Positions 8,577 through 44,477 of a DNA stretch of 64,000 bases are shown piece by piece. The first letter of the stretch is position 1. Each line of letters starts with the position of its first letter. The stretch is from Desulfosporosinus sp. FKB (GTDB lineage: Bacteria > Bacillota > Desulfitobacteriia > Desulfitobacteriales > Desulfitobacteriaceae), in assembly GCF_002196705.1 (NCBI RefSeq), contig NZ_NADJ01000033.1:248001-312000 (forward strand). The letters are read 5' to 3'. The notes under the pieces were generated by a model. It did no database searches and was not told the DNA's origin. It worked only from the letters and a program-made list of their open reading frames with translations. Made by a program: the position numbers and the translations under genes.

Positions 8577-9659
8577 ATGAATTTAGAGACTTTAAAGATC
8601 ATTGAGAAACGTATAGCCGGAGAACGGTTATCCCTTTCTGATGGCGTTCGATTGTTACAAGACGCCGATCTTCTATCCTTGGGGCAGGGAGCCGATCTCA
8701 TTCGCAAGCAGATGCATCCGGATAAAGTTGTTACCTTTGTTATCGATCGAAATATTAATTATACCAATATCTGTTCCTGCCAATGCAAGTTTTGTGCTTA
8801 TTATTGTAAACCGGGTGATCCTAAAGGATTTATTTTGTCAAGAGACGATTTACATGCTAAGATTGAAGAAACAGTTGCAGTCGGAGGAACACAACTCTTA
8901 ATACAGGGAGGATTACATCCTGATTTAGGCCTGGAATACTTTGAAGAGATGCTGAGGGATATTAAAGCTCATTTTAACATCCATATTCATTCCTTCAGCC
9001 CGCCTGAAATCTGGGATCTGGCCGAAAAATCCAAATTGAGCCTGGAAGAGGTTATTGCCCGTCTCAAAAATGCGGGATTGGACTCGATTCCCGGAGGAGG
9101 GGCGGAAATTCTCGAAGATCGAGTCAGACATCTTATCAGTCCGAACAAAATAAAATGGCAGCAGTGGATGGAGGTTATGACCAAGGCTCATCGCCTGGGA
9201 ATGAAATCTACTGCAACTATGATGTTTGGTCATGTAGAGACCTTTGAAGAACGCATCTTGCATATGATTCATGTCCGGGAAGCCCAGGATCAGACAAATG
9301 GGTTTACCGCCTTTATACCTTGGAGTTTTGCGCCCAGCAATACAGAACTGGGCGGAGAAGGAAGTACTGGTGTGGAGTATTTGCGAACTCTTGCAGTTGC
9401 GCGCTTGATGCTGGACAATGTCCCTAATATTCAAGCCTCCTGGGTTACTCAAGGTGCTAAAATGGCTCAAGTAGCCTTGCGTTTTGGAGCTAACGATTTT
9501 GGCAGTACCATGCTCGAAGAAAATGTTGTACGTGCTGCTGGAGTGCAGACTCGTGTTCCTTTACAGGAAATTGTCCGCTGCATTGAAGATGCCGGATATC
9601 AAGCAATTCAGCGAAATACATATTATGAGCGGTTAAAGGTCTACGGGAAGGAAGTGTAG
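8577..9659 (+). CDS. mqnC: cyclic dehypoxanthinyl futalosine synthase MqnC, radical SAM
   Basis: 360 residues. Cluster cysteines Cys66, Cys70 and Cys73 follow VIDRNINYTNIC; HSFSPPEIWDLA, SIPGGGAEIL and MMFGHVET follow in order. The HSFSPPEI segment is characteristic of MqnC, which cyclises dehypoxanthinyl futalosine to the spiro-naphthoate precursor of menaquinone. It starts 20 bases after mqnE and ends four bases before tatC. It is clearly a paralog of the preceding gene, consistent with the known shared ancestry of MqnE and MqnC. Confidence 0.93.
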   Translation: MNLETLKIIEKRIAGERLSLSDGVRLLQDADLLSLGQGADLIRKQMHPDKVVTFVIDRNINYTNICSCQCKFCAYYCKPGDPKGFILSRDDLHAKIEETVAVGGTQLLIQGGLHPDLGLEYFEEMLRDIKAHFNIHIHSFSPPEIWDLAEKSKLSLEEVIARLKNAGLDSIPGGGAEILEDRVRHLISPNKIKWQQWMEVMTKAHRLGMKSTATMMFGHVETFEERILHMIHVREAQDQTNGFTAFIPWSFAPSNTELGGEGSTGVEYLRTLAVARLMLDNVPNIQASWVTQGAKMAQVALRFGANDFGSTMLEENVVRAAGVQTRVPLQEIVRCIEDAGYQAIQRNTYYERLKVYGKEV

Positions 9660-32060: not shown

Positions 32061-32807
32061 TCATTTACCAGTCCACATATCTAAAACATTTTCATCGAAA
32101 TAGCCGTAGGGAAGAAGGAAATAGCCATTATCTCCCCAATTTTCCCCCCAGGAATTACGGCAGATAACTACCCCTGAGTTATTATTATCGTCTTTGTATC
32201 CCACAGCTAATACTGCATGCCCACCAAGGTATTGTTCATCTTTTTGGGGGAGTGGTACAATTCCATTTTGGGCAACCTCTTGTGATTCAAAACTTTCATA
32301 GATTTTGATTCCGATGACAACGGGGTACCCTTTTGCTAAAGCTGTTTTGAGGTCCGATAAGTTCAGTACCCTGTGATATTCACTTATTCTAAAATGAAGA
32401 GCATCAATAAATGAAACAATGGGCGGGGTTTCTTTGAATTTTGTAATATCATAGGGCCAATCACTTTCCGGAGAACAGCCGAACTTATGCAGAACCTTCA
32501 TACCATCCCGAATACTAGCTCCGGAATCTTCATCCACTGTTCCTTCCAGTTTGCGCTCTCCCCAATAAAGCCATAAACGGCTTAGAGGTGTCAATTTTCC
32601 GCTGCGAAGTTCCAGGTATTCGCGTAATCCAGAGGCAATTGCGTTAGCAGTACAACTGCCTAATTCACCTTGATCAACGACAGGGGAACATCCGCTCCGC
32701 AGATCTATGACGTGGGGGAGGGGCATTTGCTTATAGAGGGAGGAGTAAAATAGTTTATCCCTCTCGTCCGCCTTATCTTGTTTAAGCTTATACACTTTTT
32801 TTGCCAT
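32061..32807 (-). CDS. papain-like (C1 family) cysteine peptidase
   Basis: 248 residues. Catalytic triad is visible: Cys52 in VDQGELGSCTANA (Gln46 oxyanion), His197 in GGHAVLAVGY and Asn218 in RNSWGENWGDNGYF. There is no signal peptide and almost no propeptide (the catalytic Cys is at 52), so it is probably an intracellular or spore-associated enzyme. Bacterial C1A peptidases of this short form occur in several clostridia; function unknown. Confidence 0.9.
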   Translation of the reverse strand: MAKKVYKLKQDKADERDKLFYSSLYKQMPLPHVIDLRSGCSPVVDQGELGSCTANAIASGLREYLELRSGKLTPLSRLWLYWGERKLEGTVDEDSGASIRDGMKVLHKFGCSPESDWPYDITKFKETPPIVSFIDALHFRISEYHRVLNLSDLKTALAKGYPVVIGIKIYESFESQEVAQNGIVPLPQKDEQYLGGHAVLAVGYKDDNNNSGVVICRNSWGENWGDNGYFLLPYGYFDENVLDMWTGK

Positions 32808-32974
32808 AGGTTTTCCTCACTTGCTAAATTTTCTGTAACGAATTCCCTTTGGAATCCGTTTCAAATTATAGTACGTGCGATTGTCCTAAAATGTGAATAA
32901 GCTGTTCGATGACCGAAATTATCTGGTTATATTTTGCATTGCGTTTTGAAATAAAATATTTTAATTCTTAACAC

Positions 32975-33143
32975 ATTCTTCATATAAAGATCACGGAAGA
33001 GTAACAATTATATTTTATGATAGTTACAACAAAACAAACGAAAAACAAACGAAAACTCCTCGCTCTTAAGCGGTTAACATAAAGGTTTTTTCATTTTTCT
33101 TTCCTCCTCCTTATTCCCCCCCTTGAAGAGGGGAATTTTTTTT
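32975..33143 (+). ncRNA. candidate small RNA unit A
   Basis: Starts with a 33-base element matched at 44114-44146 (26 of 33 by eye) and ends in hairpin ATTCCCC / GGGGAAT with a T-run (33113-33143). A small CGCT-ctta-AGCG hairpin and a C-rich segment CTTTCCTCCTCC lie between. The exact transcript start is unknown; no ORF of note. Confidence 0.4.
33113..33143 (+). terminator. C-rich terminator hairpin A
   Basis: ATTCCCC / GGGGAAT stem with TTTTTTTT; loop includes CCC. Confidence 0.75.
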
Positions 33144-33272
33144 GACGATCTATCAATGGGGAATGAAGTTTTAATTATCTCTTGGATTATCTCTCCGAGT
33201 TGTTGTATGATAATTTGATAGAGGGATATAAAGTCATAAACGAAAATGTATAGTTATAAGGGGGAATAGTGA

Positions 33273-43652: not shown

Positions 43653-43980
43653 AATTTCTCTCCTTTAATAAATGATAATGTCTATTTCTTTTTGATCATC
43701 TAACTAAATTCGACATAAAAAGAGAAACACCTGTTTATGTGACATTTAAACATCATTGTAACTTAGATCAAGTTTGTAATTATGTAAATCAGGTCCTAGT
43801 ATACCCCATTTAATTAATTCCATTAAAACAAATGTAGAGGGAGAATAAAAAGGATCTTAACCTGAGAATAGGGGAATTAAGTACTGGCAGAAGGGCGGTT
43901 ATTAACTATCACTTATTCTCATAATCAAGTTAACAATAATGAATTTGCCTTTTATAGAATAAAGACTTAGAATTAGTATA

Positions 43981-44081
43981 ACAAAAGATTACTTCGCTTT
44001 AGTAGCGATTGACATAGAGCGTAGTCTAACCCTTAACCACCTTTCATTACTATACCCCTCCCTGAGAGGGGATTTTTTTTT
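43981..44081 (+). ncRNA. candidate small RNA unit B
   Basis: Contains a CGCT-ttagt-AGCG hairpin followed by GATTGACATAGAG, then C-rich sequence and hairpin CCCCTC / GAGGGG with nine T (44054-44081). Same order as in unit A. Confidence 0.4.
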
Positions 44082-44113
44082 GTGATATTTCCTCAAAGGG
44101 TTACTTTTTATAA

Positions 44114-44241
44114 ATTCTTCACATAATGATCAAAGAAGCATCACAAGTCTGCTTTACCATTATTATCAGCATGCAGCTAGTTCTATCCATAAGATCTATT
44201 CCTTCTTACAGTACCTCTCCAAGTGAGGGGTATTTCTTTTT
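44114..44241 (+). ncRNA. candidate small RNA unit C
   Basis: Begins with the 33-base element shared with 32975-33007 and ends with ACCTCTC / GAGGGGT and TTTCTTTTT (44213-44241). Confidence 0.4.
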
Positions 44242-44477
44242 AAGTATGCTGCTGTGATGTTTGCAGAGAGGTCACCAATATTAGTGTCATTATAATGTAA
44301 TGGGACGTGAGGTAAGGTGAAACTAATTTTATTTCTTATACTAATTTTCGTTGACTGTGGTATCCTTATCAAGAATTTGCGCTGAATTAGCTTGAGTCAG
44401 AAATAGGTGGTACTATTCTTCTCATTTTAATATGGTCTCGTTCAGTAGTTAGCAGAAAAAATATAGCGGAAAACCCT

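Follow-up and report, generated by a model that had tools for sequence, protein, structure and literature searches.

The closest described systems are the csRNAs of streptococci and the LhrC RNAs of Listeria. Passages of PMC3091779 describe csRNAs as CiaR-dependent transcripts with a direct-repeat box about ten bases from the –10 element and with two stem-loops, the linker being unpaired and carrying an anti-Shine–Dalgarno (anti-SD) motif and CAU, complementary to the Shine–Dalgarno (SD) sequence and the start codon. Several siblings are encoded per genome and their regulator is tied to cell integrity (portions of PMC3091779 and PMC4507080); for comC, csRNAs are described as masking both SD and start codon (excerpts of PMC4507080). 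LhrC, in the excerpted text of PMC4132741, is a multicopy, LisR-dependent RNA associated with cell-envelope stress, whose CU-rich sites, three in number (in loop A, linker and terminator loop), bind at the SD, and which masks the translation start of lapB.

The 64,000-nt stretch of Desulfosporosinus sp. FKB DNA analysed here (the window) holds three units, A, B and C, which on our best reading would resemble csRNAs and LhrC in mode of action while being members of neither family. Desulfosporosinus are sulfate-reducing Firmicutes, and among the open-licence papers that keyword searches listed for this genus or for Desulfitobacterium, none deals with such RNAs in its title or the opening of its abstract. 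We consider it likely, with a probability of roughly 0.7, that all three units encode sibling small RNAs (sRNAs), activated by a regulator in the case of A and C, which repress in trans as part of an envelope-stress regulon. Together with their relatives, the units look like an apparently undescribed, genus-wide sRNA gene family, which would come with a defined promoter, a structure and a testable pairing rule, and would suggest that the design of a response regulator with sibling start-masking RNAs has arisen more than once.

With the csRNAs, as these passages portray them, the Desulfosporosinus units share sibling copies, a box, stem-loops and an anti-start linker. Two stem-loops with an unpaired linker are predicted across 26 copies, less clearly in unit A, and unit C is without the hairpin. 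The boxes differ, however: four TTNACA-like half-sites are found here, whereas the CiaR box reads TTTAAG-N5-TTTAAG. Further differences are the strongly pyrimidine-rich linker, the other genus and the micro-ORF on some copies, and we claim no homology. Because the box sequence differs, the units are not csRNAs by definition; as far as sequence tells, they would work like them. The likeness to LhrC, within the same excerpts, lies in the multiple copies and, as predicted here, in the regulator dependence, the CU-rich SD-binding sites and the link to envelope stress. Set against the LhrC site layout, the 5′ loops of the unit copies are short and T-rich rather than UCCC, and their terminator loops vary. 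Rfam, which holds LhrC, returned no match at gathering score in the window, and none of eight matches to the units up to E 1 was LhrC. A match to suhB/mmgR (RF00519) at 33083–33150, with 18.8 bits against a gathering score of 41 and E 0.079 in a 211-base search, was treated as chance.

The conserved box in front of units A and C

An earlier note on this DNA had proposed that a 33-base element upstream of the 33-kb unit recurs at 44 kb with 26 shared bases, counted by eye. Ungapped comparison of 32975–33007 with 44114–44146 gave exactly 26/33, against 21/33 at the next best place in the window on both strands and 20–24 of 33 for the best plus-strand match in each of 20 block-shuffled windows, which places the identity above chance. 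At up to three mismatches, a 24-bp core pattern derived from both occurred only at these two places in the 5.12-Mb genome (control pattern: 0); across 29 Desulfosporosinus genomes it produced 47 matches in 20 genomes, compared with nine control matches. Thirty matching loci were read, of which 18 were kept as boxes for a profile (R1) and 12 set aside as chance or coding sequence. Beyond the core, the 18 kept loci have in common half-sites in a fixed row together with a –10 hexamer, and in many cases a C-rich unit comes next. Nineteen sites from these loci could be aligned gap-free over 62 bp, the half-sites keeping a constant spacing to the –10, and reveal an architecture of four direct TTNACA-like half-sites, 11 bp apart, beside the –10. 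By its sequence, the shared element is a promoter. Four direct half-sites at such spacing next to a –10 are the layout of OmpR/PhoB-family response regulator sites, and the box is probably a site of this kind.

The predicted promoter of unit A, one of the 19 aligned sites, spans 32962–33023 on the plus strand (R1 62 bits, E 1.8e-16; training-set member). Its half-sites TTAACA (32968–32973), TTCATA (32979–32984), ATCACG (32990–32995) and GTAACA (33001–33006) follow the 11-bp period, and the –10, TATGAT (33016–33021, plus strand), lies 9 bp after the last of them. Unit C has the same kind of box at 44101–44162 (plus strand; 48.9 bits, E 2.9e-12; training-set member), with TACCAT at 44155–44160 (plus strand) as its –10. 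In the FKB genome R1 gave four strong matches, those of A and C and two outside the training set, at C33:502777 (E 8.8e-8) and C32:397176 (E 1.7e-6). At E ≤ 0.01, all 29 genomes of the genus were matched, including 15/15 of those that had given no training site; at E ≤ 1e-5 and with stricter filters, the profile matched 28/29 genomes in the genus and 1/53 other genomes of the class. In the latter genome (G043, from another genus of the same family; locus L107), a C-rich terminator and an ORF read as Spo0E-like lie behind a single box.

Upstream of unit B, the profile search found no R1 match, its promoter thus not being of the R1 type, and several RNA bodies, unit B among them, are without the box. 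The element upstream of unit B (window 43900–43985, around CTTAACTATAATGAATTTG) is shared with two other loci, where it again precedes bodies (in G010 and G021), so that more than one kind of promoter may drive such bodies. Outside the window, this second conserved element lies at L149 and in L095 near 9020–9120, where the bodies likewise come without the usual box. Tandem box units were observed at L089 8778–8977 (FKB C33) and L096 8330–8542; there, a very short RNA composed of box and C-rich terminator is followed about 140–150 bp on by a full unit.

No response-regulator gene lies consistently near the units. KdpDE, encoded 1.6 kb from unit A, was considered as the general regulator and rejected, because of the 41 loci compared, only those of G000, G001 and G002 have close KdpD/KdpE relatives in the vicinity of units; of the KdpE-like regulators at these loci, none is common to more than close relatives.

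The predicted RNA body and its pyrimidine-rich linker

The sRNA predicted for unit A occupies 33028–33142 on the plus strand, from a presumed start about 7 nt past the –10 to the terminator. Its plan, as in its relatives, opens with a 5′ hairpin, continues with a pyrimidine-rich linker and closes with a C-rich terminator: the hairpin with its CGCT/AGCG core lies at 33060–33073 (judged from the sequence and from pair counts on 26 copies), the linker at 33074–33118 (read from the sequence, with the arrangement found in 20/26 copies) and the intrinsic terminator at 33119–33143, all on the plus strand. A covariance model of hairpin, linker and terminator built from the 26 copies (R2) matches unit A at 33056–33142 with 79.1 bits and unit B, whose predicted body covers 43990–44081 on the plus strand, with 72.6 bits; both are training-set members. 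For unit C, a short RNA with a C/U-rich stretch and a terminator is predicted at 44167–44241 (plus strand, presumed start), lacking the CGCT hairpin and any match to R2. The hairpin that the earlier note had seen in common with the unit at 43981 was recovered at 33061–33072 and 43995–44007, and the C-rich terminators said to recur at 33 and 44 kb were located at 33119–33133, 44055–44071 (unit B) and 44210–44234 (unit C). The idea of a three-unit family held in that parts are shared, but not in the sense of units alike throughout: A consists of box, hairpin and terminator, B of hairpin and terminator behind another upstream element, and C of box and terminator.

R2 matched four places in the FKB genome, three of them in the training set (units A and B and C33:502651) and one outside it (C7:97908, E 5.5e-7). 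The earlier note had envisaged searching the genome with a covariance model of the three units; extended to further genomes, the search with R2 found the body in 29/29 Desulfosporosinus genomes, including 8/8 of those that had given no training sequence; it was found in 0/16 genomes from the family's eight other genera and, under stricter filters that can lose weak matches, in 0/53 class genomes outside the genus. Across the 26 copies, hairpin and terminator pairs are standard in 92.4% of cells, against 44–56% when slid. The covariation score was reached by 5/500 shuffles, and the number of pairs changed on both sides, three, by 101/500. We take hairpin and terminator to be well kept, with modest covariation support. 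RNAalifold, applied to an early 12-sequence alignment, found the terminator alone, helix 1 having been hidden, we think, by misaligned hairpins; from then on, the 26-sequence alignment was used with a structure specified by us. Folded singly, the three window units were little better than shuffles (z –0.74, –1.50 and –1.34), and unit A, with the first of these values, was no better.

The linkers are on average 88% pyrimidine, with fractions of 0.64–0.97 in 26/26. In 20/26 of them, including that of unit A, CAU is followed after a short gap by an anti-SD word, compared with a mean of 4.2 and a maximum of 11 for shuffled linkers (0/1000 rounds reach 20), though the copies are related, several closely, and hence do not represent 20 independent cases. 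The first anti-SD word comes 5–8 nt after CAU in 16 of these 20; unit B belongs to the six linkers without this order. Anti-SD 5-mers alone were present in 15/26 linkers as compared with 55% of shuffles, i.e. at composition level, so that the earlier argument from C-rich loops, which often pair with SD sites, would not have sufficed in its bare form. The idea of SD pairing is itself strengthened by the complementarity to SD plus start codon, the C-rich part in question being the linker and not a loop. The linkers were predicted to be 0.87 unpaired on average over the 26 copies vs. 0.86 for shuffled linkers, and that of unit A is only partly open in the predicted full-length fold.

Within the unit A linker, the anti-start CAT (33092–33094) is followed by the anti-SD CCTCCTCC (33103–33110). 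Read as its complement, the linker gives AAGGAGGAGG, a spacer and ATGAAAAAA, which is, in its arrangement, a textbook translation start. Predicted pairing of this linker is stronger with 86 translation starts (mean –16.2 kcal/mol) than with coding stretches (–8.4 kcal/mol), but as any anti-SD would favour translation starts, these energies single out no target. Places of the form AGGAGG-N4-9-ATGAARAAA were tried as targets and dropped as too few and too generic; the genome has nine, one of which is the opposite strand of unit A.

Genes behind the box, the micro-protein and the proposed mechanism

The survey of what follows the box covered 115 distinct sites, obtained from 57 and 64 entries with the three weakest of 60 profile rows left out; since most were picked by score, as the Pfam queries were also picked, the set is not a census. 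An RNA body follows within 450 nt at 57 sites, a count that takes in any body at ≤450 nt with matches up to E 0.05 and in which a few tandem bodies belong to the next unit. Fifteen more sites have a micro-ORF, five a C-rich terminator only and 34 a protein gene; four have none of these. When 16 proteins encoded behind the box were compared with Pfam, 12 were matched (glycosyltransferase family 2, GtrA, three CWB2 cell-wall-binding proteins, a sulfatase, a PPIase, UDP-galactopyranose mutase, Spo0E-like, YccF, Ig-like and DUF2680) and four were not. The sulfatase is read as LTA-synthase-like, and further ORFs behind the box are Spo0E-like in our reading. The envelope genes were seen in other Desulfosporosinus species; what follows the four strong boxes of the FKB genome is RNAs or a micro-ORF. 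We read the set of genes behind the box as a putative cell-envelope regulon.

At many sites the box is followed by an ORF of ~22–32 codons, often with MKLII.L..IG.IPSL.R at its start (in 2 of the 15 micro-ORF cases the peptide is another one, MKYITLYL...). The window contains a sister form of 22 codons with a GTG start (MKLILFLILIFVDCGILIKNLR; 44317–44385, plus strand), situated ~75 nt past the unit C terminator. This ORF has a counterpart in G001 (L109), and its sister sequences occur behind further boxes; a second FKB micro-ORF lies at C32:397176. Over the first 18 codons of 11 copies, pN/pS was 0.31 in frame vs. 0.65 and 3.68 in the other frames, which fits a translated peptide under purifying selection, although the copies were picked by protein pattern and the test is thus biased towards this outcome.

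In the reading that we favour, an OmpR/PhoB-family response regulator of a two-component system would bind the four 11-bp-spaced half-sites by the –10 of units A and C and switch on the RNA, envelope stress being the presumed signal. Unit A would then yield a transcript of ~115 nt with 5′ hairpin, pyrimidine-rich linker and intrinsic terminator. From the complementarity of the linker to a generic translation start (SD, short spacer, AUG), we infer that the RNA represses mRNA translation in trans, by masking SD and start codon on other mRNAs. In related species, the same promoter precedes envelope genes as well as ORFs for Spo0E-like proteins and for short membrane peptides, which makes it probable that the RNAs act as the repressing arm of an envelope stress regulon. 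Comparison across genomes supports the initial suggestion that regulatory RNAs are plausible here.

Alternatively, box promoter and terminator might make up the attenuated 5′ leader of whichever gene follows and have no effect in trans. The unit C terminator does precede the micro-ORF at 44317, some tandem units precede another unit, and behind unit A comes a 96-aa ORF (33273) that is kept in G001, G002 and G010. We nevertheless consider a cis-acting leader unlikely, as the examined loci retain the body although their flanking genes vary, and a leader would not need a linker complementary to a generic translation start. It is quite unlikely, too, that the body serves micro-protein mRNAs as 3′ UTR and terminator, unit A-like copies being ORF-less remnants devoid of function: by script, 51 of the 57 body sites are without a micro-ORF, even if the pattern used missed several visible ORFs, and ORF-less copies retain box, hairpin and terminator across the genus, most of them also the linker arrangement. 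Such an origin would account for the at least six box sites with micro-ORF and body in one unit, as well as for the loci in G006, G009, G011 and G028, where box and micro-ORF stand in a neighbourhood sharing three flanking genes with that of unit A; the nearest genes differ there, so descent of unit A from a unit of box and micro-ORF is only suggested.

PhoP boxes consist of TTAACA every 11 bp, and half-sites and period of the present box resemble them, which would make the units phosphate-starvation RNAs with the same RNA action rather than envelope-stress RNAs. We rate this as rather unlikely, considering that no R1 match was found upstream of the pstS-like gene of the FKB genome (best matrix site –4.2; one genome) and that in related species the box is followed by envelope genes. 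A REP/MITE-like repeat or mobile-element family spread without function, to which the high copy number of some genomes might point (the maximum being 29 box matches, in G005), is very improbable: the copies diverge outside the functional motifs, the spacing inside the promoter is fixed, and unit A represents one orthologous locus shared by G000, G001, G002 and G010. Returning to regulator-driven sibling RNAs, a broader scenario is put forward tentatively, at less than even confidence: one promoter would give rise to a tiny membrane peptide, a start-antisense RNA or both on a single transcript, the stand-alone RNAs would stem from 3′ parts of micro-protein mRNAs by ORF loss, and an envelope-stress system of Clostridia would have evolved the csRNA/LhrC design independently. 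Start-masking RNAs would thereby be linked with micro-proteins under one promoter.

The FKB genome has two Hfq genes (C32:169076 and C40:28666), a point in favour of the sRNA reading. Two similar 31-codon ORFs, MKKQLLMYVMGCPVY..., with strong SD sites were noted at L206 and L211 (FKB C3 and C28). At about 2812–2919 of L031 (FKB C6), upstream of the pstS-like gene and some 290 bp from its start, approximately nine 12-bp units stand head to tail, reading TTAACAAGAACC in the gene's orientation. Unit A is adjoined by a divergent papain-family (PF00112) protease gene (window 32061–32807, minus strand), and a 68% identical papain-family protein is encoded in G017 (L124 2810–3574, minus strand), ~670 bp downstream of another box at L124:4241.
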